A DNA stretch of 64,000 nt from Marinobacter iranensis (lineage in GTDB: Bacteria > Pseudomonadota > Gammaproteobacteria > Pseudomonadales > Oleiphilaceae): assembly GCF_029207565.1 (NCBI RefSeq), contig NZ_JANCMW010000002.1, forward strand, positions 310,001 through 374,000, written 5' to 3'. This document shows, one piece after another, positions 50,346 through 64,000 of this stretch. Under the pieces are notes generated by a model. That model saw only the letters and a program-made list of their open reading frames with translations. It was not told where the DNA came from and made no database searches. Each line of letters begins with the position of its first letter. Positions within the stretch are counted from its first letter, which is position 1. The translations under genes were made by a program, and so were the position numbers.

Positions 50346-51215
50346 ATGAGTAACTCGCCGTACGTTTTTGAAGCCACGATGGAGAACTTCCAGCAGGATG
50401 TGATGGAAGCTTCGTCCCGAACACCCGTGCTGATTGATGTATGGGCAGAGTGGTGTGCGCCCTGCAAGCAGTTGATGCCGCTTCTGGAAAAGCTGGCGGA
50501 TGAGTACAAAGGCGGATTCCTGCTGGCCAAGGTCAACGCTGACGAGCAGCAGCAACTGACCGGTAGCCTGGGCGTGCGCAGCCTGCCCACCGTGATCCTG
50601 GTGAAAGACGGCCAGGCGGTTGATGGCTTCAATGGCGCGTTGCAGGAGAGCGAAATCCGCAAGGTCCTCGACAAGCACATTGAAATACCGGAAGACGAAG
50701 AGGCGCCTTACGACAAGGCTCACCGTCTCTGGGAAGAAGGCGACGTGGAGGCGGCCCTGGCGGTCCTCACCGAGATGAACCGGAACAACCCGGAAGACCT
50801 GAAAGTGCTGATTGACCTGGCTCAACTGAAGGCCGAGCTGGGCGACCTGGAAACCGCCGAACAGGTGCTGGAAAGCCTGCCGCCGGAAGAGAAAATGCAG
50901 CACCAGGCCAAACAGCTGGCGGCACGCATCAAATTCCTCCGGGCCTCAGCCGAACTGCCGCCGATCAAGGAGTTGGAAGATTCTCTCGATAAAGACCCGA
51001 AAGATCCCAACGCCCTGCACCTTTTGGCGCTGCACCACATCCTGCAGGAGAACAACGCCAAAGCCATGGAGCTGTTGATTCGACTGATGCAGGTGGACAG
51101 CAAGTATAAGGACGAAGTGGCGAAAACCACACTGATTGAGCTGTTTGACAAGCTGGGTAACAACAACCCGGATGTGCGCACCTATCGGCGCAAGCTTTAT
51201 ACCCTTATGCACTGA
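50346..51215 (+). CDS. cnoX: Thioredoxin-TPR chaperedoxin (CnoX/YbbN family)
   Basis: A 289-residue cytoplasmic protein with an N-terminal thioredoxin domain and C-terminal TPR-like repeats (about 125-289). The active site is WCAPC at about residues 35-39, so unlike E. coli CnoX (SxxC) it should be redox-active, as in Caulobacter. CnoX proteins hold unfolding or oxidising clients and pass them to GroEL/DnaK. It starts MSNSPYVFEATMENFQQ at the ATG at 50346. It is divergent from the Lon-type protease, a plausible quality-control pair. Confidence 0.9.
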   Translation: MSNSPYVFEATMENFQQDVMEASSRTPVLIDVWAEWCAPCKQLMPLLEKLADEYKGGFLLAKVNADEQQQLTGSLGVRSLPTVILVKDGQAVDGFNGALQESEIRKVLDKHIEIPEDEEAPYDKAHRLWEEGDVEAALAVLTEMNRNNPEDLKVLIDLAQLKAELGDLETAEQVLESLPPEEKMQHQAKQLAARIKFLRASAELPPIKELEDSLDKDPKDPNALHLLALHHILQENNAKAMELLIRLMQVDSKYKDEVAKTTLIELFDKLGNNNPDVRTYRRKLYTLMH

Positions 51216-51240
51216 CCGATCTGTCAGGGCCACTGCAATC

Positions 51241-51273
51241 GTAGGTCGGGTAGAGCCAAAGGCGAAACCCGAC
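51241..51273 (+). repeat. REP-like palindrome, copy 6
   Basis: GTAGGTCGGGTAGAGCC then GGCGAAACCCGAC. It lies 25 bases past cnoX and marks the left edge of the AT-richer catabolic island. Confidence 0.65.
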
Positions 51274-51341
51274 GGGTACTCTCCAACGCCGAAACTTCTC
51301 CCTAAATCCCAGGCGGTGAAATCTGCCAGTGATAACGTGCG

Positions 51342-52016
51342 CTAGCTGTTACTCAGTTGCGCGAGCGCCGCTGCAGCCGCGTTTTTCACATGGAGAGCGG
51401 CAGCTTTGCGGGCGGCTGACGCATCCCTGGAAGATAGCGCTTCCATAAGCTTTTCTAATTCTTCAATGCTTTTTTGGGTTCTACCTGCTGTTTTCAGAGA
51501 AGTCGCCCGCAGCAAAGTCACTCGAGAGTTTAGCATGCGTAGGGTATCCCCCAGCGCTTCGTTGCCTGAACCCTCTATCAAACAGTCGTAAAAGTGGTTT
51601 TTGGCTTTGAGCCGGTCAATCGGGCCGCTTTCAGTTAGTGCTATCTTCAGTTCCTCAAAAGCGTTCTTCAAGGCTGATCTCTGAGCATCAGATGCATGCT
51701 CAGCAAACAGTTCGCTTGCGAGGCCTTCCAATTCTGTCCTGACTGCATAGATTCCTTTCGCCTGGGTTACCGTCAGGGTCGCAACCACCGGGCCGCGATG
51801 GGGAATAATGTGAATCAGACCTTCAGACTCCAGTTGGCGCAGAGCCTCTCGCACTAACGTTCGGCTCACACCAATCATTTCGCAGAGCTCCCGTTCGGGA
51901 AGCCGTTCGCCAGGTTGAAAATGTCCTACTGCAATCGCGTTGCGTATATTTTCAGTCACACTATGTCGGAGCGGTGCTGCAGAGCGCACTACTCGGAAAT
52001 TGGGCGCTTCATTCAT
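51342..52016 (-). CDS. GntR-family regulator with FCD domain
   Basis: A 224-residue FadR-subfamily repressor. The winged helix is at residues 15-85 (IRNAIAVGHFQPGERLPERELCEMIGVSRTLVREALRQLESEGLI, in parts), and the all-helical FCD ligand domain covers about 95-215 with acidic/His residues (HFYDCLIEGSGNEALG, ALHVKNA) that usually bind a metal and a carboxylate. It is the only regulator of the island and so the likely controller of the TRAP, PrpD/ALDH and lactonase/SDR units. It lies downstream of the TRAP binding-protein gene on the same strand. Confidence 0.85.
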   Translation of the reverse strand: MNEAPNFRVVRSAAPLRHSVTENIRNAIAVGHFQPGERLPERELCEMIGVSRTLVREALRQLESEGLIHIIPHRGPVVATLTVTQAKGIYAVRTELEGLASELFAEHASDAQRSALKNAFEELKIALTESGPIDRLKAKNHFYDCLIEGSGNEALGDTLRMLNSRVTLLRATSLKTAGRTQKSIEELEKLMEALSSRDASAARKAAALHVKNAAAAALAQLSNS

Positions 52017-52083
52017 GAGAGAGGCTCAAATGGGTCACACATCGGTCGGATTATCTGTATTTAATCTGAAGATATTTTACAAG

Positions 52084-52126
52084 CTCAACCACGCCGCATA
52101 TTACCATAACCTCGGGCGTGGTTGAG
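52084..52126. promoter_or_regulatory. 12-bp perfect inverted repeat between dctP-like gene and gntR
   Basis: CTCAACCACGCC (52084-52095) and GGCGTGGTTGAG (52115-52126) are exact complements with a 19-base AT-rich centre. There is no T-run on the minus strand after it, so it is a weak terminator at best. It may be a processing or stability hairpin, or an operator near the gntR promoter. Confidence 0.5.
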
Positions 52127-52160
52127 GTCATTTGCTCAACAAAAGCAAGACCAATGCCTG

Positions 52161-53210
52161 CTACTTGTCCAATACATCCCGGATTTTTTGCACATAAGCG
52201 GGACCGTCAAAGCCAACTTCTTCCGCTCTCTGATACCAAGAATCGTACGCGCCTTGAGTGTACTTTTCCTGGTTCAGCTCAGCTCGCTCTTTCTCTGAAG
52301 CGCTCCAGACTTTGGCGCCGTCTTCCTCCATCTGATCCATTGCTTTCTGCACAAAGTCTTTATACCCGCCGAAGGCTTCTTTCTGCAGTTCGTCCATTGC
52401 ACCTTGGATCTGCTCCTGAATGTCTGAGGGGAGCTTCTCCCACTCATCCTTATTCATCAGAATAGCCCAGCCGGTAACGGGAGCGATTCCCCAATCCTGT
52501 ACATGGGGAGCTTCGCGCCAGATGTCCATTGTTCCGCCTACACAGGCAGACGTGAATACACCGTCAATAACGCCACGCTCCAATGCGGGCACAATTTCTG
52601 TCATTGGCATCGGCGTACCTTTGCCGCCCAGCGACTCAATCAGGCTGGCAGTCTGTGGGTTGTGGACACGAAGTCTTTTTCCTTTAAAGTCTTCAACTGA
52701 ATGGATGGGCGTCTTGGAGAAAAGTCGGGTATTGCACCACGCACCTTCGGCGAAGACCTTTGCGTTCCAGGATTCGTCCCAGATTCGGGCTACATCCTCG
52801 GCCCAGAAGGCATTACGCACTTTCTGGTAATCGTCGATATTTTCGATCAAACCAGGCAGGTTGAAGATACCCATGCGGGGCTCATCGCCAGCCAGATAGG
52901 TATGAAGAGCAGCTGACATGGGGAGGCGACCGTCTCGCACAGCTGAGGCGACTTGTGACGCAGCGATCAGCGAGTCGCTCACAGTTACTTCGACTTTGCC
53001 ATTAGTCGCCCTTGCAACCCGCTCCGGGACGCTTGTCGTCATTTTTCCATAGATGTCGCCCGGGGATACGATCGCCCCCATAGTGAATTCATATTCTGCC
53101 TCTTCAGCGACAGCTGGCATCGAAAAAGACCCTGCTACAAGGGCGGCCGCCAGAGTCTGGCCCATGATTTTTCTGGCAAATGAAAAACTTGTTACGCATT
53201 GCATTGTCAT
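52161..53210 (-). CDS. TRAP transporter substrate-binding protein (DctP family)
   Basis: A 349-residue periplasmic binding protein that delivers an organic acid to the TRAP permease encoded divergently. A signal peptide ends near PAVAEEAEYEF, after MGQTLAAALVAGSFSM. The DctP fold shows GDIYGKMTTSVPERV, FKGKRLRVHNPQTASLIESLGG in parts, with the Arg that usually binds the ligand carboxylate (RLRVHNP), and GVIDGVFTSACVGG. GGAGG lies 8 bases before the ATG at 53210. Ligand unknown. Confidence 0.9.
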   Translation of the reverse strand: MTMQCVTSFSFARKIMGQTLAAALVAGSFSMPAVAEEAEYEFTMGAIVSPGDIYGKMTTSVPERVARATNGKVEVTVSDSLIAASQVASAVRDGRLPMSAALHTYLAGDEPRMGIFNLPGLIENIDDYQKVRNAFWAEDVARIWDESWNAKVFAEGAWCNTRLFSKTPIHSVEDFKGKRLRVHNPQTASLIESLGGKGTPMPMTEIVPALERGVIDGVFTSACVGGTMDIWREAPHVQDWGIAPVTGWAILMNKDEWEKLPSDIQEQIQGAMDELQKEAFGGYKDFVQKAMDQMEEDGAKVWSASEKERAELNQEKYTQGAYDSWYQRAEEVGFDGPAYVQKIRDVLDK

Positions 53211-53278
53211 TGTTTTTTCCTCCGGATTATCTGAACGCTATCCTGATGCTCGCGGGATTCCGAATAAGAACCACTTGC

Positions 53279-53308
53279 TTGCACCAAGGCGTAGTACCGT
53301 AATACAAT
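53279..53308 (+). promoter_or_regulatory. Plus-strand promoter of the TRAP permease operon
   Basis: TTGCAC (53279-53284), an 18-base spacer and TACAAT (53303-53308), embedded in GTAATACAAT. The same layout recurs at 62073-62102. Confidence 0.6.
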
Positions 53309-53327
53309 ATGACAAAGAGTTCGTCAA
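53299..53327 (-). promoter_or_regulatory. Opposed promoter of the TRAP binding-protein gene
   Basis: On the minus strand TTGACG (53327-53322), a 17-base spacer and TATTAC (53304-53299). Its -10 overlaps the plus-strand -10 by two bases, so polymerase can use only one promoter at a time. Confidence 0.6.
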
Positions 53328-53428
53328 TAGAATACTAATAATAGGCTTGGGCTGACGAGTTTGTATTTGGCTGCCCAATGCTCCGCACAGAGCCGTCAAC
53401 ATGGGCGAGAGTTATGGGAGAAAGCAAG

Positions 53429-55513
53429 ATGCCCCACAGTTATCTGGATGCAGTACCGCACGAAAGTGAAACCCTAGAAAAACGGGAGCCAACTGACTCC
53501 CCGCATCCTATCTCGCGCAGTATTGACGGGCTATGCAGCCTGGCTGGAATTATAAGCGCTGCCGGTCTTCTCATTATGACCGGAATTATTTGCTTCGAGG
53601 TGATTTCGCGTTATTTCTTCAATTCCCCAACCTCTTGGAGCATTGAGATTGCGACTTACATTTTTGTTGCAATCGCTTTCTTGGGGCTGTCAGTGGCACA
53701 GCGAAGTGGTAGCCACGTTCAGGTCGAGATTCTGGTTAGTCGGCTGGATGGGCCACGACGAACGCAGGTGGAGCTTTCCGCTTGTTGGATCTCACTGTTT
53801 TTTGTGGGGGTCGCGGCCTGGCAGATGGCGAAGTTCAATTACAGGGAATATGTCAATGGCACCAGGGATTGGGGCCTGTTGGCTACCCCGCAGTGGATCC
53901 CCGAACTGGCCGTAAGTCTCGGTCTTATCCTATTTGCAGTTTCCATTCTGGGCGAAATCTTTCGTCTGCGCCCGCCTCGCTCAATGTTTGAACAATGGAT
54001 TGTTCCCCTCATAAGTCTGGTTCTGGTTGCCGGCCTCTTGCTCATCGGCAATGAACGGATTGAGCTATTTGAGAGTGGGCTTACCCTTGGTCTGGTGAGT
54101 ATCTTTGTCGCCCTCTTTGCGTGTGCCTGGGCCTGGAGCGGATTACGGATCGCGTCAGTCTTTGCTTTATCTTATCTTGCGCTTGGCCTCCTCTACTACG
54201 CACTTGGTGACACCAGCAAGTTGTCAGTCGGATTGTTGTTGGTGGGGAGTCTTCTGTTGTTACTTTTGGCTGGTGTCCGGGTGGGGCTCGCGATGGGGGT
54301 CGTTGGTCTACTTGGGCTGCTGCTACTTTTTTCGTCTCCCAACTTGGCAATGCTGGCAGATCGGTCGTGGACCAGCATTAATACGTTTACGCTTACCGCA
54401 ATCCCAATGTTTGTGCTAATGGGGCACTTCTTGATTCGAAGCGGGGTTACGAGCGATCTTTTCGACACCATGACTTGCTGGTTTGGCCGTATGCCGGGCG
54501 GGCTTGCTAATGCGAGTGTCGGTGCGTCTGCGGTATTTGCAGCAGTGTCAGGTTCCAGCCTGGCAACAGCCGCCACGCTTGGCCAAGTGGCTGCGCCCGA
54601 AATGATGCGTCGAGGATATAGTGCCCGCCTCACCTACGGAGTAGTTGCTGCAGGGGCCACACTGGGCATTCTTATCCCCCCCAGTATTGCAATGATCATA
54701 TACGGGAACGTGGTCGGGGTTTCCATCACCCAACTGTTTCTCGCGGGCATGGTGCCGGGTGCAATACTCATAGGCCTTTTCATTACTACTGTGCTTGTGT
54801 GGTCAGTCTTTGTTCCAGGTGCCGCGCCAAAAGAAGAGTCTCGTCGCCTGGGAGAGAAAGTCGCGTCTCTGGGTAAGCTTCTTCCATTCCTGATCCTGAT
54901 TACCGCAGTGCTGGGGTCCCTGTATGCGGGCATCGCGACCCCTACTGAAGCCGGAGGCGTGGGTGCGCTTATCGCGATGCTGTTATGCCTCCAACGTAAG
55001 AAGCTCACGGTAAAGCTTGTCTACGAGACGGCACTGGAAACCGTCCAGGTGACGGCATTCATTATGCTGATTGTCGTTGGTGCGGCAATATTCAGTTGGG
55101 TATTCGATTTTCTACAACTGCCCAGGGAAATGGTTGAGTACGTGCAGGGCTCGAATCTGGCCCCTTGGGTAGTAATGCTGGCAATTGGTGGAGTGTATCT
55201 GGCATTGGGGACGATCATTGAGTCTATTTCCATGATGCTGATGACGCTTGCCGTCACCTATCCCATAGTGATTTCCCTTGGCTTCGACCCTATATGGTTC
55301 GGTGTGGTTCTGGTGCTGCTCATCGAAATCGGGCTGGTAACGCCCCCGGTGGGGATCATTCTGTTCATTCTCCGCGGCCTTAGTGATTCCGTGCCATTAA
55401 AAGAAATTGTCCTTGGTGTAGTTCCCTTTGTGTTGATTATGTTGAGTTTCATCGTCTTTCTCTACTTCTTCCCTGAAGTCGTGCTTTGGCTTCCTGAAAA
55501 GATGAACGATTAA
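53429..55513 (+). CDS. Fused TRAP transporter permease (DctQM)
   Basis: A 694-residue membrane protein fusing the small DctQ subunit (about 35-200; four helices, FEVISRYFFNSPTSWSIEIA) to the large DctM subunit (about 260-690; many helices, AIPMFVLMGHFL, SVGASAVFAAVSGSSLATAATLG in parts, ATPTEAGGVGAL). It uses the sodium gradient to import the acid bound by the DctP protein. The ATG at 53429 follows GGGAGA by 8 bases; an ATG at 53414 is the alternative. An extra pair of helices (about 200-260) links the two parts. First gene of a four-gene operon. Confidence 0.92.
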   Translation: MPHSYLDAVPHESETLEKREPTDSPHPISRSIDGLCSLAGIISAAGLLIMTGIICFEVISRYFFNSPTSWSIEIATYIFVAIAFLGLSVAQRSGSHVQVEILVSRLDGPRRTQVELSACWISLFFVGVAAWQMAKFNYREYVNGTRDWGLLATPQWIPELAVSLGLILFAVSILGEIFRLRPPRSMFEQWIVPLISLVLVAGLLLIGNERIELFESGLTLGLVSIFVALFACAWAWSGLRIASVFALSYLALGLLYYALGDTSKLSVGLLLVGSLLLLLLAGVRVGLAMGVVGLLGLLLLFSSPNLAMLADRSWTSINTFTLTAIPMFVLMGHFLIRSGVTSDLFDTMTCWFGRMPGGLANASVGASAVFAAVSGSSLATAATLGQVAAPEMMRRGYSARLTYGVVAAGATLGILIPPSIAMIIYGNVVGVSITQLFLAGMVPGAILIGLFITTVLVWSVFVPGAAPKEESRRLGEKVASLGKLLPFLILITAVLGSLYAGIATPTEAGGVGALIAMLLCLQRKKLTVKLVYETALETVQVTAFIMLIVVGAAIFSWVFDFLQLPREMVEYVQGSNLAPWVVMLAIGGVYLALGTIIESISMMLMTLAVTYPIVISLGFDPIWFGVVLVLLIEIGLVTPPVGIILFILRGLSDSVPLKEIVLGVVPFVLIMLSFIVFLYFFPEVVLWLPEKMND

Positions 55514-55548
55514 TTTACTAAACCCTCAAATTTGCAGGAGCAAATAGT

Positions 55549-56475
55549 ATGTCGTTACCAAAACTGGGCTTTATAGGCATTGGTCGCATGGGTATGCCAA
55601 TGGCTAGAAGACTCATTCAGGCTGGGTACTCCGTGGTTGTCTTTGATCCCAACGCAGAGGCAGTGAAGTCCTTGGTTAAAGAGGGGGCAACTGGTGCTGA
55701 AAATCCCGCAGAAGTTGCCACTAACAGCGAAGTTATTTTGCTGTCCCTGCCCACCCCCGACATCGTGGACGCCGTTGCTTTTGGGGAGAACGGCATTGTT
55801 TATGGAGTGGATTCTGACACTCAGAAAACCGTGATTGATCTTTCAACAACCGGACCCGAAGGCGCCAGGGCATTGGCGGAAGGTCTGTCGAGCAAGGGCA
55901 TCAAGTCCATAGACTGTCCCGTGAGCGGCGGTGTCGGCGGTGCAGAGAAAGGAACCCTTGCGCTGATGGCCTCCGGTGACCCCTCGGTTGTCGAGAATGT
56001 TGGTGATGTGTTGAAGGTGTTGGGAAATTCCTTCCTCGTCGGGCCGGAACCTGGTATGGGTCAAATGATTAAAGTCATCAACAATCTGGTTTCGGTCACA
56101 GCGTTGGCGATAACTTCAGAAGCTCTTGTGCTGGGTACGAAGGCCGGGCTCAACCCTGATGTCATGGTTGATGTCTTCAATGCCAGCAGCGGTCAGAGCA
56201 ATGCGAGCCTGACCAAGATTCCGAAATTTGTACTTACCCGCAGTTTCGATTTCGGTTTTGCTCTCGACCTATCCGTCAAGGATGCGCGGCTCTGCCTCGA
56301 ACAAAGCGAGGCTCTGGGTGTGCCTATGGTAGTTGGTTCTGCTGTTCGGGAGATGTTGAAAATAACGAAGGCCAAGCTCGGCCCCCAGGCTGACATGACC
56401 TCAATCATTCAGCCTGTCGAGGAATGGGCCGGAATTAAAGTTCGCGGGGCAAACGCCAAGCCAGAAAACAGCTGA
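55549..56475 (+). CDS. 3-hydroxyisobutyrate dehydrogenase-family oxidoreductase
   Basis: A 308-residue beta-hydroxyacid dehydrogenase that would interconvert a hydroxy acid and its semialdehyde with NAD(P). The Rossmann motif GFIGIGRMGMPMARRL opens the protein, the substrate loop is DCPVSGGVGGAEKGTL, and the catalytic Lys sits in MIKVINNLVS. Related enzymes act on 3-hydroxyisobutyrate, tartronate semialdehyde or succinic semialdehyde. Placement between TRAP and PrpD genes supports catabolism of the imported acid. GCAGGAG precedes the ATG. Confidence 0.88.
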   Translation: MSLPKLGFIGIGRMGMPMARRLIQAGYSVVVFDPNAEAVKSLVKEGATGAENPAEVATNSEVILLSLPTPDIVDAVAFGENGIVYGVDSDTQKTVIDLSTTGPEGARALAEGLSSKGIKSIDCPVSGGVGGAEKGTLALMASGDPSVVENVGDVLKVLGNSFLVGPEPGMGQMIKVINNLVSVTALAITSEALVLGTKAGLNPDVMVDVFNASSGQSNASLTKIPKFVLTRSFDFGFALDLSVKDARLCLEQSEALGVPMVVGSAVREMLKITKAKLGPQADMTSIIQPVEEWAGIKVRGANAKPENS

Positions 56476-56486
56476 AAGGTCAGGCT

Positions 56487-57860
56487 ATGAAGATAGGCAC
56501 GGAGAGGGCGGGTAACGAAGAGCAAAGTCACACTTCCAGATATCTTGCTCAGTTTCTCGTCTCGGCGCGATTGGATGAAATGCCCGAGGCTCTGATCCAC
56601 GAGGCGAAACGTTCTATTCTAAATGGTTTCGCAACGGCCTTTGCAGGCTGCAGTGATGCCGCTATGGAGAGATTGGTCAAGACGCTCAGCGGGTTTTCGG
56701 GGCGGCCCCAGGCGAGCCTCACAGGTCGGAAGGAGCGTTTTGACGTGCTTACGGCTGCCTTTCTGAACGCAGTCAGTACCAACGTCTTCGACTTCGACGA
56801 CACTCACCCTGGCACCATTATTCATCCCACAGCGCCTGTTTCGCCAGCGTTGTTTGCACTGGGTGAGCACCGGCCTTTTTCCGGTCGTCGTCTACTTGAG
56901 GCATTTATTCTGGGTGTGGAATTGGAGTGTAGGTTAGGGAATGCTATCTCCCCTGGTCACTACAAGCGGGGCTGGCATATCACTTCGACTTGTGGCGTGT
57001 TTGGTGCCGCTGCTGCGACGGGCAAGATTCTCGGGCTGGATAAGGAGCGGATGGTCTGGGCACTGGGAAACGCCTCTGCTCAATCAAGCGGTCTTGTGGA
57101 GACGCTGGGGAGCATGGCGAAGAGCGTCGGCGTCGGCAACGCGGCGCGGAATGGCCTGTCGGCCGCTTTGATGGCCGGTAACGGCGTAGAAGGCCCAGGC
57201 AGGCCTCTTGAAGGTGAGCGAGGGTTCTTGAAGGTAACGTCTGATTCACCAAACTTGCCTGCCCTGGTGGAAAATCTTGGTAGCAACTGGGAACTATCAA
57301 GAAACACCTATAAGCCCTATCCATGTGGAGTGGTGCTCAATCCCGTCATCGAGGCCTGTCTGGAAATAGCAAATGCTCCGGATTTTGATGCGAGCCGGAT
57401 TCAAAGTGTGACAATCAGCGGTCATTCATTGCTTCGTGAGCGCGCTGATCGTCCGACGGTCGAAACTGGGCGCGAGGCCCAGGTAAGCGCTCAGCATGCT
57501 GCTGCGGTCTGTTTACTCTACAAGGCCTCTAGCCTGAACGAGTTTTCTGACGAAGCGGTGAATCGAAAAGACGTCCTCTGGTTGCGCAAAAAAGTGAAAG
57601 TTGTCGTCGATGATGCGGCCATGGTGGGGGCTGCGCACGTGATTGCAGTGTATACCGACGATACCGTTTTGGAAGCGACTGTTAAGCACGCTCGTGGGGA
57701 TGCAGAGTATCCTCTGAGCGACAGGGACATTGAGGAGAAACTTCGCGACCTGATTGTTTACGGTCGTTCCGGGGTGGACCCGGAGCCCATTATAGATGCG
57801 ATCTGGCGGCTTGATCAGATCAAGGATGTTTCAGAGATTATGGCCTTAGCTCGACTATGA
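56487..57860 (+). CDS. MmgE/PrpD family protein
   Basis: A 457-residue member of the MmgE/PrpD family, which contains 2-methylcitrate dehydratase, cis-aconitate decarboxylase and other dehydratases/lyases of branched tricarboxylic acids. Family segments are AKRSILNGFATAFAG, VFDFDDTHPGTIIHPTAPVSPAL in parts (with the metal/substrate His-Asp cluster), and RNTYKPYPCGVVLNPVIEA. Without prpB/prpC nearby, a methylcitrate role is unlikely. It lies 11 bases after the dehydrogenase gene. Confidence 0.85.
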   Translation: MKIGTERAGNEEQSHTSRYLAQFLVSARLDEMPEALIHEAKRSILNGFATAFAGCSDAAMERLVKTLSGFSGRPQASLTGRKERFDVLTAAFLNAVSTNVFDFDDTHPGTIIHPTAPVSPALFALGEHRPFSGRRLLEAFILGVELECRLGNAISPGHYKRGWHITSTCGVFGAAAATGKILGLDKERMVWALGNASAQSSGLVETLGSMAKSVGVGNAARNGLSAALMAGNGVEGPGRPLEGERGFLKVTSDSPNLPALVENLGSNWELSRNTYKPYPCGVVLNPVIEACLEIANAPDFDASRIQSVTISGHSLLRERADRPTVETGREAQVSAQHAAAVCLLYKASSLNEFSDEAVNRKDVLWLRKKVKVVVDDAAMVGAAHVIAVYTDDTVLEATVKHARGDAEYPLSDRDIEEKLRDLIVYGRSGVDPEPIIDAIWRLDQIKDVSEIMALARL

Positions 57861-57941
57861 AGAATACCTCGCCGACCTAAACCTTTTCGCGGGTCTGCCT
57901 GACCAGACGCGCCGCTTGGCCTTACTGATAAGGAAACCGCA

Positions 57942-59402
57942 ATGAAACTTGAAGATTCCAAGCTTTTTCGCCAGCAAGCATACATTGACGGCACCTGGCT
58001 GGATGCCGACACCGGGCAGACTATCGAAGTCAGCAATCCTGCTACCGGAGAGATCATCGGCAGCGTACCCAGGATGGGCGCGACCGAAACGAGTCGTGCC
58101 ATTGGCGCGGCCAATCGAGCCCTCCCTGATTGGAGGCGGCTTACCGCCAAGGAGCGCTCGAATAAATTGCGCCGCTGGTTCGAGCTTCTCACGGAAAATC
58201 AGGATGATCTTGCCTTACTGATGACTCTGGAGCAGGGCAAGCCGTTGGCCGAAGCCAAAGGTGAAATCAGCTACGCAGCCTCTTTTATCGAGTGGTTTGC
58301 TGAGGAAGCCAAGCGAGTTTATGGCGATACCATTCCCGGCCATCAGTCGGACAAAAGGCTGATCGTGATCAAACAGCCAATCGGGGTTACGGCGGCGATT
58401 ACGCCGTGGAACTTTCCGGCCGCAATGATCACCCGGAAGGCTGGTCCGGCGCTGGCTGCGGGGTGCACCATGGTGCTCAAGCCGGCATCGCAAACACCGC
58501 TCTCTGCATTGGCTTTGGTCGAGCTGGCAGAGCGTGCCGGTATCCCCAGAGGCGTTCTGAATGTTGTGACCGGAAGCGCAGGGGATATTGGTCAAGAACT
58601 GACCGGCAATCCGATTGTGCGCAAACTATCATTCACCGGATCGACGGATATAGGTCGTCAGTTGATGGCCGAGTGCAGTCAAGACATCAAAAAGGTTTCT
58701 CTCGAATTGGGGGGGAATGCGCCGTTTATCGTCTTTGAAGATGCTGATCTGGACGCTGCAGTCGAGGGCGCCCTAGTCTCCAAATACCGCAATAATGGCC
58801 AGACCTGCGTCTGCGCAAACCGCCTCTATGTGCAGGATAGTGTATTCGAGGCGTTTACTGAAAAGCTGAAGTTGGCTGTGGCCAAGCTGAAGGTTGGCAA
58901 TGGCCTGGAGGAAGGCGTCACTGCCGGGCCACTGATTGACCAGAAGGCACTCGCAAAAATACAGGAGCACATTGATGATGCTCTGAACAAAGGAGCCAGA
59001 CTGGTCACTGGTGGCAAACCCCACGCCCTGGGAGGCTGTTTCTTCGAGCCAACCATTCTTGCTGACGTGCCGGCTTCTGCGTTGGTCGCCAAGGAAGAAA
59101 CATTTGGTCCGCTCGCACCATTATTTCGATTCAAGGACGAGGCAGAAGTGGTTGCCATGTCCAACAACACTGAGTTTGGGCTGGCCTCATATTTCTACGC
59201 TCGTGATCTTGGCCGTGTGTTCCGTGTGGCTGAGGCTCTGGAATATGGGATGGTCGGCATCAACACAGGCCTTATTTCCACCGAAGTGGCACCTTTTGGC
59301 GGCATAAAGTCCTCAGGACTGGGCCGTGAAGGCTCCCGGTATGGCATTGAAGACTACCTGGAAATAAAGTATCTGTGTCTAGGAGGAATAGAGGGTTTAT
59401 AA
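57942..59402 (+). CDS. NAD(P)-dependent succinate-semialdehyde-type dehydrogenase
   Basis: A 486-residue aldehyde dehydrogenase closest in motif to GabD. Cofactor region ITPWNFPAAMITRKAGPAL, glycine motif FTGSTDIGR, general base Glu in SLELGGNAPFIVF, and catalytic Cys in NNGQTCVCANR (first of two Cys). The C-terminus EVAPFGGIKSSGLGREGSRYGIEDYLEIKY, in parts, is SSADH-like. It would oxidise the semialdehyde made by the SDR or HIBADH-like enzymes to a dicarboxylate. Last gene of the TRAP operon; the space after it (59403-59525) has a hairpin GGCTCCA/TGGAGCC-type near 59459-59480. Confidence 0.9.
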   Translation: MKLEDSKLFRQQAYIDGTWLDADTGQTIEVSNPATGEIIGSVPRMGATETSRAIGAANRALPDWRRLTAKERSNKLRRWFELLTENQDDLALLMTLEQGKPLAEAKGEISYAASFIEWFAEEAKRVYGDTIPGHQSDKRLIVIKQPIGVTAAITPWNFPAAMITRKAGPALAAGCTMVLKPASQTPLSALALVELAERAGIPRGVLNVVTGSAGDIGQELTGNPIVRKLSFTGSTDIGRQLMAECSQDIKKVSLELGGNAPFIVFEDADLDAAVEGALVSKYRNNGQTCVCANRLYVQDSVFEAFTEKLKLAVAKLKVGNGLEEGVTAGPLIDQKALAKIQEHIDDALNKGARLVTGGKPHALGGCFFEPTILADVPASALVAKEETFGPLAPLFRFKDEAEVVAMSNNTEFGLASYFYARDLGRVFRVAEALEYGMVGINTGLISTEVAPFGGIKSSGLGREGSRYGIEDYLEIKYLCLGGIEGL

Positions 59403-59525
59403 GCTGCCAAGAAATATCCGACACTGAAGTGCAATCTCGCCGGCTTATCTTATGGCCGGCTCCAGATTATTTTGGAGCCAGCCATGCCAACGCTGAGCAT
59501 GTGTGGAGCTTACGGCGAGTCAGGC

Positions 59526-60314
59526 CTAGTTGTCACCTGCCATAACACCGCCATCGATCAGCATGCTTGTACCCGTAACCATTGCGGACTCATCAGAACA
59601 GAGATATACGGCTGCGTGCGCCACCTCCTCCGGCTTGATCATCCGGCCGATAGGCTGGTATCTGGAATACTCCTCCATGCGGGATTCCTCTTCTCCGGGA
59701 TAATACTGCTCGATATATCCCTCGATAAAATCTGTATGAACGCGGGCGGGCAATATGCAATTGGCGCGAATGCCCTGGCTGACGAAGTCTACCGCAATGG
59801 AGCGCGTCATCATCTGGATTGAAGCTTTGGAGGCCCCGTAGGCAAACCGGTCGTGCATGGCGCGAACAGCCGCCAGCGACGCCATATTCAATACGTTGCC
59901 ACTCCCTGCGCTTATCATTGCCGGCAGAAAGGCTCGGGTGACATTGAGTAGACCTTCCACGTTGACTTTGAAAACGCGGTTGAGGTCCTCGTTCGACGTG
60001 TTGAGTAGGTTGCCTACCGTGATAACTGCGGCATTGTTGACAAGTACGTTCACAGGCCATTTTTTCTCCACCAGAGCGTTGTAGACTGACTTGATGGACG
60101 CCGGATCTGTCACGTCCATCACCAGTGCCAGCAAACGGTCTGTTGCACCCGTGGCATCAGCTGCGAGAAGTTCCTGAGCTTGCTGCTCCAGTTGAGAGCT
60201 GGCAAGGTCAGTCATTACAACGTGCGCACCTTCGGCTATAAACGCCCGACTCATGGCTAGTCCGATGCCGCCTGCTGCGCCAGTTATTAGGCAGGTTTTA
60301 CCTTCCAGTCTCAT
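59526..60314 (-). CDS. Short-chain dehydrogenase/reductase (SDR) B
   Basis: A 262-residue classical SDR. The start [16 protein letters not shown] at 60314 (GGGA upstream) is preferred to a frame beginning at 60353. Cofactor motif TGAAGGIG, the NNAA motif ([11 protein letters not shown]), catalytic Ser region MASLAAVR and YGASK (YxxxK) are present. The Asp at the end of the second strand (MTDLAS) suggests NAD. Substrate unknown. Third gene of the lactonase-SDR-SDR operon. Confidence 0.88.
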
Positions 60315-60337
60315 ACGATTGTTCCCATAACAAGTAG

Positions 60338-61123
60338 TTATTTCGCGAGCCAACCACCATCAATGGGTAGTGACGCTCCGGTTATATCCGCGGCCTGAGG
60401 GCTACAAAGAAACGCTATCAATGCGCCTACTCCTTCCGCAGCAACAAACCGTCCGGTAGGATTTCGTGTCGCCAGGTACTCCTGCTCAGACTCGGCAACC
60501 GCCACGCCTTTATCTCGAGCAATCTCCCTTATGCGTTCATTGATAGCTGGCGTGGCTACCGTTCCCGGACACACTGCGTTGCATGTTATGGCGGTCTGAG
60601 CCAGCTCAACTGCCATGGCACGCGTCATTCCCAGTAGCCCGGTTTTAGTGGTGACATAATCAACGCGATTTTCCGCACCGCGTTCACTGTATATGGATGC
60701 CATGTGAATTATGCGTCCCCAGTTCCCTGCCTTCATCCCAGGGATAGAGAGACGGGAGAGGTGAAAAGCAGCCGACAGGTTAACGGCGATGGAGTCATTC
60801 CAATCTTCCGCTGTGAATTCTTCGATCGGGGAGAAATGGCGCATCACCGCATTGTTTACAAGGATGTCGATGGAACCAAAACGATCCTTTATTGTGGCCA
60901 CCATCTTTTCGATTTCCGAGACGTGCCGCAGGTCCGCGCGAACATAAATGGCGTCTAGGCCATGGGTCTCTGCTAATTGATGAGCCGTGCGCTCGCCTTC
61001 TTCGTCCAGGCACAGACCGTGCAGGACGATATTCGCCCCTGCAGCTGCCAGACTGTCAGCGACCGCGTATCCCAGCCCTGAGTTTGAACCTGTTACCAGG
61101 GCGCACTTTCCTTTCAGAGTCAT
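60338..61123 (-). CDS. SDR A, 3-hydroxybutyrate dehydrogenase-like
   Basis: A 261-residue SDR with TGSNSGLG, NNAVMRHFSPIEEF, and YVTTK as YxxxK. The C-terminus TRNPTGRFVAAEGVGALIAFLCS, in parts, then AADITGASLPIDGGW, closely resembles D-3-hydroxybutyrate dehydrogenase. It could oxidise a 3- or 4-hydroxy acid freed by the lactonase. Its start overlaps the lactonase stop by ATGA. Confidence 0.85.
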   Translation of the reverse strand: MTLKGKCALVTGSNSGLGYAVADSLAAAGANIVLHGLCLDEEGERTAHQLAETHGLDAIYVRADLRHVSEIEKMVATIKDRFGSIDILVNNAVMRHFSPIEEFTAEDWNDSIAVNLSAAFHLSRLSIPGMKAGNWGRIIHMASIYSERGAENRVDYVTTKTGLLGMTRAMAVELAQTAITCNAVCPGTVATPAINERIREIARDKGVAVAESEQEYLATRNPTGRFVAAEGVGALIAFLCSPQAADITGASLPIDGGWLAK

Positions 61124-61950
61124 AGCTTTTCAGGCTCCACATCGAGGCTCACAATTACACCTTCCATATCTGGCGAAGGGGTAGGGTAAAGACGCATGAC
61201 AAGGGGGTCGTGCCCCGGAATGATGTGGTCCGCACTATCGGCCAAGCGGTCCATTGCGCCATATCCTTCCAGAAGTTCTCCCAAGTGGTAAACCGCCGGG
61301 AAAGCTTTACGACTCTGGAAATTAGCGTAGAGGTGTGATGCATCTGAAGCGAGCACCACCCAGCCCCGCTTCGTCCAGACCCGAACCATTTGCATGCCCG
61401 CTGTATGCCCTCCGACTCGATGAAGGGACAAGCCCTCGGCTAACTCGACATCCGAGTCGTGGAACTTGACTCTGTCAGCGTATACATGGCGGATAAAAGA
61501 AACCACGTCCTCGACATCGTAGGGGGCCCGGAGAAAGTCGTGGCACATGCACCGACCGGTAGCAAAGGCTGCTTCGCTGTCCTGCACATGAAATTGGGCG
61601 GCAGGAAAGTCGGAAAGAGTTCCAGCATGATCGTAATGAAGGTGGGTTAGTATCACGTGCCTGATTTCGGCAGCATCGATTCCGAGCAGCGCGACCGCTT
61701 CTGCGGGGGTTTGAAGTAGGGTGCGCCCTCTCTGGGCTGCCGCTTCTCTCCCGAAGCCTGTATCGATCAGAAAAACCTCGCCAGCACGCCGCGCTACCCA
61801 AACAAAGTAGTCAAGGTCCGAGCCTTCCTCGTGAAGATCCCCGCCGATCATGTTGTCGCTGGATTTCCGGTTGCTATGGTTGGCATAGCGAATCGCGTAA
61901 AGCTCAAACGGCGCGGGGTTACTGCTGGATGAGGTCGCGTGATTGTTCAT
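61120..61950 (-). CDS. Metallo-beta-lactamase-fold lactonase (AHL-lactonase family)
   Basis: A 276-residue metallo-hydrolase. The dinuclear metal motif is complete: HLHYDHAG (HxHxDH), a later His in GGHTAGM, Asp in LASDASHLY and His in IIPGHDP. Overall it matches the N-acyl-homoserine lactonase/BlcC (AttM) group, which opens gamma-lactone rings. The start MNNHATSSSS at 61950 is used; the first 45 residues are polar. It heads an operon with two SDRs, so a catabolic lactonase is as likely as a quorum-quenching enzyme. Confidence 0.85.
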   Translation of the reverse strand: MNNHATSSSSNPAPFELYAIRYANHSNRKSSDNMIGGDLHEEGSDLDYFVWVARRAGEVFLIDTGFGREAAAQRGRTLLQTPAEAVALLGIDAAEIRHVILTHLHYDHAGTLSDFPAAQFHVQDSEAAFATGRCMCHDFLRAPYDVEDVVSFIRHVYADRVKFHDSDVELAEGLSLHRVGGHTAGMQMVRVWTKRGWVVLASDASHLYANFQSRKAFPAVYHLGELLEGYGAMDRLADSADHIIPGHDPLVMRLYPTPSPDMEGVIVSLDVEPEKL

Positions 61951-62072
61951 AAAAACGCCCTTTATTGTGATTACGGCCTCAAGGCGTGAGGCGCACACTG
62001 TTTATACCAAGTATCGACTGGACGGAAGGATTTTCGAGCTACCGATTAAATGAGGCAGCATTTCCCTCTTTC

Positions 62073-62102
62073 TTGCAACATACAATAATACAGTAATACA
62101 AT
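62073..62102 (+). promoter_or_regulatory. Plus-strand promoter of the CMD-thioesterase operon
   Basis: TTGCAA (62073-62078), an 18-base spacer and TACAAT (62097-62102), again inside GTAATACAAT. ATACAAT also occurs 16 bases upstream (62080-62086). Confidence 0.6.
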
Positions 62103-62120
62103 GCAACCAGGATGGGTCCA
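62093..62120 (-). promoter_or_regulatory. Opposed promoter of the lactonase-SDR operon
   Basis: On the minus strand TGGACC (62120-62115), a 16-base spacer and TATTAC (62098-62093), with the -10 overlapping that of the plus-strand promoter exactly as at 53299-53308. Confidence 0.45.
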
Positions 62121-62222
62121 TGGGATGACTGCCCGGAAAGGTATGAAGTTGCATAGCTGCCTGGCGTTTTCCGGCATGCCAGTACCCTAGCCAATATTTT
62201 CGTGATGTTAAGGAGGTGAATG

Positions 62223-62624
62223 ATGTCTAATCGTCCAGAGTTCCAGGGTGAGTTGTTTGAAAAAGGTCTGCAAATCCGGCGTGAAGTTCTGGGTGATGCC
62301 TATGTCAATCGCTCAGTGGCCGCTGCAGATGATATGACTGCGCCTTTGCAAAAACTGATTACGGAATGGTGCTGGGGTGAAGTATGGGGTCGCCCCCAAC
62401 TCGATCGCCGCACTCGCAGTTTCCTGAACCTCGCGATGTTGGCTGCTCTGAATCGTCCGAATGAGATGCGAATTCACCTCAGAGGAGCCCTGAATAATGG
62501 TGTTACTCGTGAAGAGATCCGAGAGGTGGTCCTACAAGTGGCAATATACTGTGGAGCACCGGCAGCCTTGGATGCTCAAAAGGCGGTGGTAGAAGTATTC
62601 AAGGAAATTGATGCAGAAGAGTAG
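62223..62624 (+). CDS. Carboxymuconolactone decarboxylase family protein
   Basis: A 133-residue all-helical protein of the PcaC-like CMD/AhpD superfamily. The start MSNRPEFQGELFEKG is the second of two adjacent ATGs and has an ideal AAGGAGG 6 bases upstream. Conserved blocks are WGEVWGRPQLDRRTRSFLNLAML in parts, HLRGALNNGVTREEIREVVLQ in parts, and YCGAPAALDA. PcaC decarboxylates 4-carboxymuconolactone; a lactone-linked role fits the neighbouring lactonase. No other protocatechuate genes are present, so the true substrate may differ. Confidence 0.88.
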   Translation: MSNRPEFQGELFEKGLQIRREVLGDAYVNRSVAAADDMTAPLQKLITEWCWGEVWGRPQLDRRTRSFLNLAMLAALNRPNEMRIHLRGALNNGVTREEIREVVLQVAIYCGAPAALDAQKAVVEVFKEIDAEE

Positions 62625-62715
62625 TCTCTTCGGCTCCTGCCAAGGGCGTAAATGTGCATCCGGAGCTGATGCACTGCCCGTTTTAATACCAACTGAAGCA
62701 TAATAGGTATTCACA

Positions 62716-63105
62716 ATGCTCGACAATCCTTTTCTAGCGTTGCTCGGAGCGCATCTTAGAAAATGGGAGGACGGGCTCTGTGAGTGGGAGCTGGAAATTG
62801 CCCCTCATCATCTGAATACCCAAGGTTCGTTACAGGGCGGTGTCATTGCGACGCTATTAGACGTGGCCTGTGGGTACAGTGGCTCTTATTCAAACTCCGA
62901 GTCAGAAGAGGTGCGTGCAGCGACTGTATCTCTCACAGTTCACTTTATGGTTAAGGCTACAAGGGGGTGCCTCATAGCCAGGGCCCGGAGGGTAGGTGGG
63001 GGGAGGAGAATCTTCTTCTCAGAAGCGGAGCTAATAAGTGATGAGGGCGTCATCGTGGCAACAGCCTCCGGTAGCTTCCGTCGTCACAGTCTCTCATTGC
63101 AATAA
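62716..63105 (+). CDS. PaaI-family hotdog thioesterase
   Basis: A 129-residue single hotdog domain. The helix segment NTQGSLQGGVIATLLDVACGYSG, in parts, is the PaaI/YdiI signature with the Gly-Gly and Asp near residue 47-55, followed by strands VSLTVHFMVKA and GRRIFFSEAELIS. It would hydrolyse an acyl- or aryl-CoA, recycling CoA from a dead-end intermediate. It lies 91 bases after the CMD gene and is the last gene of the island. Confidence 0.85.
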   Translation: MLDNPFLALLGAHLRKWEDGLCEWELEIAPHHLNTQGSLQGGVIATLLDVACGYSGSYSNSESEEVRAATVSLTVHFMVKATRGCLIARARRVGGGRRIFFSEAELISDEGVIVATASGSFRRHSLSLQ

Positions 63106-63566
63106 ACGCGGCTGGACACCAGAAATACTCGCTTAAGGTCCGATTGAATGATTACGGGTGCGCAATCACTCTCGGAGCAGCCTTCAATTACATAATCTGT
63201 GTCGGTGTCTATCAGGCTGGAGTCAATCCCAGATCGACGATAGAGCGCTGTAGTGGCCGCCATCGATTATGCGAGAGGGCAGTGCCCGGCCAATGTGGAG
63301 CCCGGTGTCGGACTGGCAGGATCGCATTATCACCAGGCAGGCAGCGGTCTGGTCGAGCCCGAGCGTTTCCGTGAGTGACTGGTTGGCAGTCAGCCTGCGA
63401 GTCATTTCGCCCAGGGCGCCGTGGGCATTTCCAGAGTAAATCTTCAGCCGGTTGCCATAGCAGTAGTCAGAAACGAAGGGTGTGTTGTCTGATCATTGGG
63501 TGCCTCCTTGCCACAGGGTACGGGGCGGTGCGGCCCCGTCGGGGGCCGCTGAATCAAAGATGGCGG
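63106..63566. other. Gene-poor right edge of the island
   Basis: No gene can be supported in these 461 bases. Short frames exist on both strands (for example a minus-strand frame through 63223-63405 that stays open to about 63500), and may be the remains of a decayed gene. A GC-rich hairpin (GCGGCCCC/GGGGCCGC) near 63531-63550 precedes the KamA-like gene's stop and may act as its terminator without a T-run. Confidence 0.5.
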
Positions 63567-64000
63567 TTAACCGTTACCCTTTTTCATCTCTTCATACTCA
63601 TCCTCAAAGAAAAACTTCTCTTCCCCAAGGGCCGGTTCCAGCTCATGTAGCCAGGTAGCCGTTTCACTGTACTTGGCAAAGAAGGGCTGCTGCACCCAGT
63701 CCGGGTTGCGGGCCTGGATGAACCGGAGCACGAACACTTTCTCGCCGTGTATCTCGGTGATGCCCTGCACCTCAACCTTACCCGGGCCGGCACTCATTGA
63801 CGGACCACGGGCGGTACGGGCCAGGCCGGAGACCTGCTTCATGGCCTCGCGGTAGATGTTGAATGCCTCTACCAACGGTACCTCAAAGTAGTTCTTGGCA
63901 CCGGTGTCCCGCTCCACAAACATGTAGTAGGGGATGATGCCCAACTGCACTTCCTTGTCCCACAGCTTTGCCCAGTCGTCGGCATTGTCATTCACATGCT
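63567..64000 (-). CDS. KamA-family radical SAM protein, C-terminal part (cut by window end)
   Basis: About 144 residues of the C-terminus are present; the frame stays open to the window edge, and the radical SAM CxxxCxxC cluster would lie outside. VQLGIIPYYMFVERDTGAKNYFEVPL and VEAFNIYREAMKQVSGLARTARGPSMSAGPGKVEV, both in parts, match the C-terminal region of lysine 2,3-aminomutase-like enzymes. The end (RNPDWVQQPFFAKY, then an acidic tail) looks complete. Whether it is a lysine aminomutase, which makes beta-lysine (an osmolyte precursor in some bacteria), cannot be decided from this part. Confidence 0.75.
   Translation of the reverse strand, partial: HVNDNADDWAKLWDKEVQLGIIPYYMFVERDTGAKNYFEVPLVEAFNIYREAMKQVSGLARTARGPSMSAGPGKVEVQGITEIHGEKVFVLRFIQARNPDWVQQPFFAKYSETATWLHELEPALGEEKFFFEDEYEEMKKGNG

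Follow-up and report, generated by a model that had tools for sequence, protein, structure and literature searches.

An inserted island of Marinobacter iranensis holds a recurrent MmgE/PrpD-lactonase-dehydrogenase module, tentatively assigned to the degradation of a hydroxymethyl-branched dicarboxylate

Gene content of the island

The subject of this study is a catabolic gene island in the Marinobacter iranensis genome (4.69 Mb, 444 contigs). It lies in a stretch of 64,000 nucleotides, referred to as the window, all of which was analyzed. From left to right the island comprises gntR (-), dctP (-), dctQM (+), a gene for a 3-hydroxyisobutyrate dehydrogenase (HIBADH)-like enzyme (+), mmgE/prpD (+), a succinic semialdehyde dehydrogenase (SSADH) gene (+), two short-chain dehydrogenase/reductase genes, SDR2 (-) and SDR1 (-), a gene for a hydrolase of the metallo-beta-lactamase (MBL) fold (-), a gene of the carboxymuconolactone decarboxylase (CMD) family (+), and a 4HBT thioesterase gene (+). 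An earlier reading of the bare sequence, here called the original prediction, had listed these genes; all were found where it had placed them, and the Pfam families agree. The ATG start of the MBL gene at 61,950 is preferable to the longer GTG open reading frame. The DctP, DctQ, and DctM domains that define a tripartite ATP-independent periplasmic (TRAP) transporter are all present. The best solved relatives of DctP, 4nap and 4pgn (83 bits), are too distant for its ligand to be named from them.

Table 1. Coordinates of the island and its features, in window positions
Feature	Position	Strand	Basis
Inserted island between ybbN and kamA	51286..63531	.	Absent in congeners, low G+C
GntR/FCD, proposed regulator of module	51342..52016	-	Pfam GntR, FCD
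TRAP solute-binding protein DctP	52161..53210	-	NF037995, 119.9 vs cutoff 50
Operator-like site, divergent promoter dctP/dctQM	53296..53312	-	23.8 bits, top motif score of window
Fused TRAP permease DctQ-DctM	53378..55513	+	Pfam DctQ 67-197, DctM 289-700; TIGR00786, 357.8 vs 268.45
HIBADH-like beta-hydroxyacid dehydrogenase	55549..56475	+	Pfam NAD_binding_2/NAD_binding_11
MmgE/PrpD protein, proposed C2 epimerase of 2-substituted succinate	56487..57860	+	Pfam MmgE_PrpD
NADP-dependent SSADH, GabD type	57942..59402	+	Pfam Aldedh; NF008415
SDR2	59526..60317	-	Pfam
SDR1, 3-hydroxybutyrate-dehydrogenase-like, proposed lactol/hydroxyacid dehydrogenase	60338..61123	-	Pfam; NF009093
MBL-fold lactonase-like hydrolase	61120..61950	-	Pfam Lactamase_B
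Operator-like site, divergent promoter MBL/CMD	62082..62098	-	20.5 bits, second-highest of window
PcaC-like CMD family protein	62220..62624	+	Pfam CMD
4HBT thioesterase, probable bystander	62716..63105	+	Pfam 4HBT, 31.0 vs 20.6

Insertion of the island

The ybbN protein was matched in 60 of 61 genomes of the genus (own genome counted), and in seven congeners the stretch beside ybbN was aligned against the window and its continuation. The island was not present between ybbN and kamA in any of the seven. The spacing from ybbN to the kamA-like gene was 7 to 2,251 bp in these genomes versus ~12.2 kb in the window, and homology was found to stop at ~51,215 to 51,329 on the ybbN side and to restart at ~63,530 to 63,583 on the kamA side. 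The kamA-like neighbor encodes a KamA-family radical SAM protein that scores under the family cutoff (155.0 versus 199.2 bits). The G+C content is 0.534 for the island and 0.582 for the rest of the window, and 79 overlapping 12.2-kb windows to the left of the island ranged from 0.571 to 0.597. The MBL gene gave no match at E ≤ 1e-40 in 57 other genomes (58 searched, 36 in the genus), and the PrpD gene gave a single other match at E ≤ 1e-60 among 369 genomes of the class, at 37% identity. Judged by these sequence comparisons, the island is one insertion, horizontally gained, with its own regulator, and its genes form one real unit. The original prediction had described the island as richer in A+T than its flanks and consistent with transfer, and both descriptions were borne out.

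The boundaries fared differently. A repetitive extragenic palindromic (REP) element had been proposed to bound the island; the REP-like sequence at ~51,240 to 51,290 instead lies at the end of the flank common with the congeners, and since homology runs to 51,329 in one congener, it is not established as an island end. The segment at 63,106 to 63,530, earlier called decayed, is the right end of the island, has no assigned gene, and has no match in the seven congeners. At the ybbN-kamA junction of four of the seven (L106, L108, L109, L112), a different short sequence of 351 to 2,251 bp was observed, suggesting that the junction may be a recurrent insertion site.

Recurrence of the module in other genomes

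A PrpD profile built from the window protein and five plasmid relatives was used to scan 84,980 species genomes, giving 439 confirmed stretches, the best 80 of which are the loci considered here. As the proteins in the profile are all encoded near an MBL relative, this selection of loci favors the module. The loci were picked by PrpD similarity and the genes called by our own script, which called PrpD in only 69 of the 80 and no genes at all in L024; 27 of the 80 are also shorter than 21 kb. Absences are therefore overcounted, and L081, counted as lacking partners, has an MBL match by tblastn.

Near PrpD in the 80 loci, relatives were found of MBL in 47, SDR1 in 46, the HIBADH-like enzyme in 45, CMD in 44, GntR in 31, SSADH (any SSADH-like gene) in 26, DctQM in 13, DctP in 9, SDR2 in 2, and the thioesterase in none. 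The original prediction had staked itself on the genes not lying apart in most genomes, and the core was indeed found together: MBL, SDR1, and HIBADH-like genes all lie near PrpD in 41 of 80 loci, or 37 of the 53 loci of at least 21 kb. As same-strand neighbor pairs, MBL-SDR1 occurred 32 times and HIBADH-PrpD 33 times. The recurrent core deduced from these sequences is MBL, SDR1, the HIBADH-like enzyme, MmgE/PrpD, and the PcaC-like protein, often with GntR and sometimes with TRAP. The gene set is thus a copy of an existing recurrent module and not a one-off assembly. The module ranges over Rhizobiales, Stella, Burkholderiales, Pseudomonas, and this island. By tblastn of plasmid records, relatives of PrpD lie a few kilobases from those of MBL in Paracoccaceae, Rhizobium, Sphingobium, Paraburkholderia, and Variovorax; plasmids of Sodalis, Marinobacter M3C, Aminobacter, and others carry MBL relatives with no PrpD nearby. 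No paper describing the module was found by title or start of abstract, in a search whose coverage left most subscription papers outside.

The window order gntR-dctP-dctQM-HIBADH-prpD-SDR2-SDR1-MBL-CMD, without SSADH and thioesterase, was found in Mesorhizobium zhangyense (L019) and in a metagenome-assembled Rhizobiaceae genome (L029). The window proteins are 55 to 79% identical to those of L019. GntR relatives of 62 to 70% identity occur in L058, L017, L019, L029, L091, L073, and others, CMD relatives of 79 to 81% in L017, L013, and L019, and the only two close SDR2 relatives among the loci (64 to 66%) in L019 and L029. A PrpD tree, and the residue counts given below, were made from the 74 PrpD proteins called on genome contigs and plasmids that had 350 to 520 residues and a score of at least 330 bits, with L097 removed as a duplicate of L007. 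In this tree the window protein groups with L019, L029, and L087 (support 100/92) on a long branch of 0.58. The shared gene order and the tree grouping indicate that a rhizobial-type module was probably gained, from a donor outside the genomes compared.

Several variants were also observed. In 28 of the 80 loci, mostly Alcaligenaceae or other betaproteobacteria by record title, none of MBL, SDR1, HIBADH-like, and CMD was called. In a number of betaproteobacterial loci (L021, L026, L028, L031, L032, L036 to L039, L051, L068, L079, L088), the MmgE/PrpD protein belongs to the same subfamily and keeps its active site, and no partners were called nearby; these would represent another pathway context for this subfamily. 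The Marinobacter sp. M3C plasmid (L012, NZ_CP092285.1, 147595-164356) carries an MBL relative of 46% identity with TRAP, CMD, aldehyde dehydrogenase, HIBADH-like, and cyclase genes; the set is flanked by transposase genes and the assembly lacks MmgE/PrpD. In Burkholderiales, Pseudomonas, and Sodalis (L009, L011, L034, L046, and similar loci), the module has larger relatives, in which the HIBADH-like genes number two or three; for L009 and L011 the annotation also lists NIPSNAP, cupin, and major facilitator superfamily (MFS) genes. In Aquabacter spiritensis (L043, 3067-6246), separate genes for an aconitase-family large subunit and C-terminal domain, with a TctC-type binding protein, lie beside the module, a hint of hydratase chemistry on a branched diacid.

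SSADH and thioesterase

The original prediction had included SSADH and a thioesterase in the set. Both are present, and each appears to be a local addition. The aldehyde dehydrogenase scores above the cutoff of the NADP-dependent SSADH (GabD) model NF008415 (981.2 versus 828 bits). It has matches at E ≤ 1e-150 in 18 of 28 other relatives, at 55 to 65% identity, with 59 to 65% for those in other members of the genus, and a second copy of 60% identity in its own genome, so that it was probably added separately. For the thioesterase, no locus of the 80 held a blastp relative at E ≤ 1e-15, and the gene is therefore probably not part of the module.

Operator-like motif and regulation

Of the 25 intergenic regions in the motif set, 22 were divergent promoters of the module, taken from 15 manually selected loci that were TRAP-type or had a GntR gene close by, and three were window regions, one of which is the nondivergent region upstream of gntR. 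A 17-nt motif, T-N-ATATTGTATGAT-N-GT, was found at ≥ 12 bits in 22 of the 25 regions (21 of 25 in leave-locus-out scoring) and, with the full motif only, in 1 of 42 promoter gaps that served as controls in these loci (L043, 12.6 bits). The regions under 12 bits were that upstream of the window gntR (4.8), L048 (4.1), and dctP/dctQM of L019 (9.7), with one more in the leave-locus-out scoring. The two best sites of the entire window fall in the dctP/dctQM and MBL/CMD promoters, both of which were in the training set; weaker overlapping copies lie at 62074 and 62090 in the latter. Both rhizobial loci tested that have the vitamin B6-type gene context described below carry the motif (L007, 19.3 bits; L073, 17.3 bits).

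A pattern written to fit both island sites had two matches in the 4.69-Mb genome, both in the island, and the reversed control pattern had none; this demonstrates confinement and is not an independent discovery. As the fitted pattern is confined to the island, its GntR probably regulates both island halves, and the GntR/FCD protein is the predicted binder of the sites. The possibility of two unrelated half-islands was rejected because the motif is common to both divergent promoters.

The MmgE/PrpD protein

The protein is a member of the MmgE/PrpD superfamily (MmgE_PrpD_N, 239.8 bits; MmgE_PrpD_C, 90.4 bits; gathering threshold, 32.1), and neither NCBIfam equivalog for 2-methylcitrate dehydratase, PrpD proper, was reached (19.9 versus 575 and 25.9 versus 950 bits). 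The closest solved sequence is iminodisuccinate (IDS) epimerase (2hp0; 162.6 bits, 233.5 with the profile), followed by Bacillus "IRG1" and then cis-aconitate decarboxylase. The residues reported for IDS epimerase are H85, D88, H99, H150, K198, K266, and the catalytic Tyr145 (available portion of PMC12290011). As read from the alignment, H99, Y145, D88, H150, K198, and K266 correspond to H113, Y159, D102, H164, K212, and K276 of the window protein, and these six are invariant in 74 of 74 relatives. Residues H277 and Y318, named for mammalian cis-aconitate decarboxylase in the accessible part of PMC7347537, are not kept: the alignment places G281 and R319 there, R319 in 74 of 74 relatives. These comparisons point to an epimerase-type active site in which one residue differs and from which the decarboxylase-specific residues are lacking.

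The four characterized members of the superfamily act on 1,4-dicarboxylates with substituents at C2/C3, and the member from the itaconate cluster isomerizes (S)- to (R)-methylsuccinate (PMC12290011, in the portion available), a role proposed earlier in PMC9875883 (likewise available in part). The window protein resembles IDS epimerase and methylsuccinate isomerase in fold, in the two-base site (His, Tyr), and in most carboxylate-binding residues; it differs from them by Asn99 in place of His85 and by its genomic partners, and it is 25% identical to 2hp0 by structural alignment. If our assignment is correct, it would add a new MmgE/PrpD activity to the four characterized.

The MBL, SDR, HIBADH-like, and PcaC-like proteins

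Residues H104, H106, D108, H109, H183, D204, and H248 of the MBL protein (numbering of the 277-residue translation) are invariant in 16 of 16 sequences; we take this HxHxDH motif with the distal His, Asp, and His to be the dinuclear metal ligands. The protein thus has the residues of an MBL-fold lactonase in the broad sense. It did not reach the NCBIfam equivalogs for the N-acyl homoserine lactone (AHL) lactonases AttM (52.7 versus 390 bits), AiiA (46.6 versus 375), AidB (60.7 versus 360), and AhlS (47.8 versus 475), nor that for 4-pyridoxolactonase (38.1 versus 325). The nearest solved structure to its model (predicted local distance difference test score [pLDDT], 81.5) is 8x78, an AHL lactonase of Pseudomonas poae (Z, 30.2), with AiiA, GcL, and 4-pyridoxolactonase tied at Z of ~26. 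No paper naming 8x78 was found among the literature matches listed.

SDR1 scores above the cutoff of NF009093, a subfamily model for 3-hydroxybutyrate dehydrogenase (266.9 versus 258 bits), and below that of TIGR01963 (266.7 versus 307.05); its relatives in L009 and L005 pass neither. The HIBADH-like enzyme is under every listed NCBIfam cutoff, and its best match in the Protein Data Bank is 3cky, 2-(hydroxymethyl)glutarate dehydrogenase (181 bits). The CMD protein is slightly under the PcaC model TIGR02425 (151.1 versus the cutoff of 155.7), and two module relatives scored 137.9 and 144.9.

Proposed pathway

The families place the following demands on a substrate: a 2-substituted succinate for the epimerase, a C2-substituted 3-hydroxy acid for the HIBADH-like enzyme, a lactone for the lactonase, and succinic semialdehyde for SSADH. 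One compound, 2-(hydroxymethyl)succinate (itamalate), fits all four and was proposed for this reason. We tentatively hypothesize that the island imports a small lactone or hydroxy acid and degrades it via this compound to succinate under its own GntR; the assignment of the substrate, reasoned from the enzyme families, is equally tentative. The chain of steps was deduced from family chemistry. The TRAP system would import the small lactone or hydroxy acid, SDR1 would oxidize the ring form (lactol) to the gamma-lactone, and the MBL protein would open this lactone, paraconate, to 2-(hydroxymethyl)succinate. The MmgE/PrpD protein would invert C2 and so supply one enantiomer, the CH2OH group of which the HIBADH-like enzyme would oxidize to CHO, giving 2-formylsuccinate. 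This beta-aldehyde acid would lose CO2, spontaneously or by action of the PcaC-like protein, and the resulting succinic semialdehyde would be oxidized to succinate by the GabD-type SSADH. The GntR/FCD protein would sense an intermediate and control both operons. The theme of one catabolic island acting on lactones or branched dicarboxylates, set out in the original prediction, is supported. Literature found for paraconate, itamalate, and hydroxymethylsuccinate concerned fungal itaconate, PMC9875883, PMC12290011, organic synthesis, lichen compounds, and unrelated work.

A number of observations weigh against this proposal. All 74 relatives have N99 where IDS epimerase has H85; the protein was for this reason not filed as an IDS epimerase or methylsuccinate isomerase, and probably works like them. 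Its AlphaFold model (mean pLDDT, 87.6) matched the decarboxylase (Z, 46.0; root mean square deviation, 2.1; 432 aligned) slightly better than the IDS epimerase (44.4; 2.6; 436), and the fold therefore does not separate the two activities. PrpD relatives without partners are interspersed in the tree, where partner status is clustered yet requires 11 changes, indicating that some relatives act outside the module. The transporters differ between loci (TRAP, tripartite tricarboxylate, ATP-binding cassette [ABC], MFS), and thus substrates may vary. SSADH is not core: the SSADH-like genes near PrpD are 31 to 38% identical by tblastn, except for 50% in L042; the one scanned, an aldehyde dehydrogenase of a Paraburkholderia plasmid, is far under the SSADH cutoff (305.7 versus 828); there is no SSADH in the L019 locus, and L029 has only a 32% relative outside the module. 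SDR2 is given no step in the proposed chain, and the 3cky match of the HIBADH-like enzyme is hardly ahead of its matches to reductases of sulfolactaldehyde and tartronate semialdehyde (6sm7 and 1vpd; 181, 179, and 175 bits). Within the vitamin B6 context discussed below, the gene set was observed in a single family, Rhizobiaceae, and its annotated dioxygenase has no NCBIfam match at E ≤ 1e-20, with no Pfam match at E ≤ 1e-5 for the L073 relative.

Alternative substrates and known systems

The alternative that survives best, although we consider it unlikely, is the degradation of fungal itaconate derivatives, in which the MBL protein would open 2-hydroxyparaconate to itatartarate and the HIBADH-like enzyme would oxidize the CH2OH group of the latter. 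Itatartarate has no C2 hydrogen to epimerize, and the island genes include no CoA transferase, hydratase, or lyase. The chemical shape is nevertheless the same, a gamma-lactone of a hydroxymethyl diacid, and a bacterial cluster does combine a 2-hydroxyparaconate lactonase, PA0880 (127 amino acids), with the MmgE/PrpD isomerase PA0881 (PMC9875883, available in part). This itaconate/methylsuccinate cluster of Pseudomonas and Cupriavidus (PA0878-PA0886 type) resembles the island in combining, for branched C5 diacids, a dicarboxylate transporter with a C2 isomerase of the MmgE/PrpD type and, in Pseudomonas aeruginosa, a lactone hydrolase (PMC9875883 and PMC12290011, in their available portions). 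The cluster is CoA dependent (CoA transferase, hydratase, lyase), whereas the island has NAD(P)-type dehydrogenases and an MBL-fold lactonase-like protein.

Lower in probability is a gamma-butyrolactone/4-hydroxybutyrate route like that of Agrobacterium blc/att, with a lactonase, a HIBADH-type hydroxybutyrate dehydrogenase, and SSADH. The att/blc system has an iron-type 4-hydroxybutyrate dehydrogenase and an IclR regulator. The co-occurrence of a lactonase-like MBL protein and a bona fide SSADH matches it, and the original prediction had found the set reminiscent of the Agrobacterium pathway. This likeness did not hold: the MBL protein reaches 52.7 of the 390 bits for AttM and belongs to another lactonase subfamily, and among the att/blc features only SSADH was found, no island gene coding for an alcohol dehydrogenase of the iron type. 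MmgE/PrpD, CMD, and SDR1, all of them recurrent, would also be left without a task, and SSADH is not core. The island has, instead, a HIBADH-like dehydrogenase together with SDR1, MmgE/PrpD, CMD, TRAP, and GntR, and the gamma-butyrolactone reading was rejected on the types of its MBL protein and dehydrogenase.

Just as improbable is a branched sugar-acid lactone of the apionate or isosaccharinate kind, with a transporter of its own for each variant. Parts such as TRAP and FCD usually go with organic acids, and SSADH points to a C4 semialdehyde, although in L060, the single Mesorhizobium locus whose flanks were scanned, the neighbors of the module include an ABC transporter of the sugar type and a LacI regulator. 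The characterized MmgE/PrpD substrates, moreover, are 1,4-dicarboxylates (PMC12290011, portion available).

That the MBL protein is a quorum-quenching AHL lactonase with the remaining genes loosely associated is very improbable: many relatives are annotated "N-acyl homoserine lactonase family protein" and 8x78 is the nearest structure, but the protein is far under the AidB, AttM, AhlS, and AiiA cutoffs, 4-pyridoxolactonase ties in fold with AiiA and GcL, and the SDR1, HIBADH-like, and PrpD partners recur with a common operator-like motif.

The 2-(hydroxymethyl)succinate route would be a new pathway of a known general kind. If it is correct, the many public records that name the lactonase-like proteins of the module after quorum-quenching enzymes are misleading.

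Link to vitamin B6 degradation

Vitamin B6 degradation includes an SDR and MBL lactonase pair, pyridoxal 4-dehydrogenase and 4-pyridoxolactonase. Routes I and II resemble the island in this pair; they differ in that the island MBL protein is not a 4-pyridoxolactonase and no ring-opening enzyme is present in the island. As end product, the known routes yield either succinic semialdehyde or 2-(hydroxymethyl)-4-oxobutanoate (PMC3538738, available in part). The ring form of the latter is the substrate that would be expected for SDR1, and the CH2OH group of the pyridoxine ring would remain after ring opening as a hydroxymethyl branch on a C4 diacid. Degradation of B6 by the M. iranensis genome itself was rejected on one marker: no pyridoxamine-pyruvate transaminase over the cutoff was found in it (best, 26.3 versus 600 bits). 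The compound would accordingly be imported here or made otherwise.

The link comes from Rhizobium daejeonense (L007/L097), Rhizobium sp. ACO-34A (L006), and Metarhizobium album (L073), in which CMD stands divergent to the order MBL-SDR1-HIBADH-prpD-transaminase-gntR. In each of these Rhizobiaceae, the transaminase scores above the cutoff of the pyridoxamine-pyruvate transaminase equivalog (645.1, 641.8, and 665.8 versus 600 bits). Beyond CMD lie an HpaB-like oxygenase gene (219.1 versus 480.2, under the cutoff), an NTF2-like gene, two amidase genes, a flavin reductase gene, and a gene annotated 2,5-dihydroxypyridine 5,6-dioxygenase. Literature searches for pyridoxamine-pyruvate with dihydroxypyridine, pyridoxine 4-oxidase, or MmgE did not retrieve the module by title or start of abstract.

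This gene set is possibly a third route of vitamin B6 degradation. It is doubtful that the module both provides the lower pathway, so far unassigned, for gamma-lactones of C4 diacids with a hydroxymethyl branch (paraconate/2-(hydroxymethyl)succinate type), in which an MBL-fold lactonase and a new epimerase subfamily of MmgE/PrpD would supply a HIBADH-type dehydrogenase, and forms the missing lower half of such a route in Rhizobiaceae. If so, hydroxymethyl diacids from B6 breakdown and similar chemistry would gain a testable pathway with a candidate regulator and operator. The conserved transaminase-oxygenase-amidase-lactonase-module set was observed in the R. daejeonense plasmid (L097, NZ_CP048425.1, 9757-25445), L006, and L073, and the two Rhizobium plasmids carry in addition a GMC oxidoreductase gene, annotated pyridoxine 4-oxidase in one of them.

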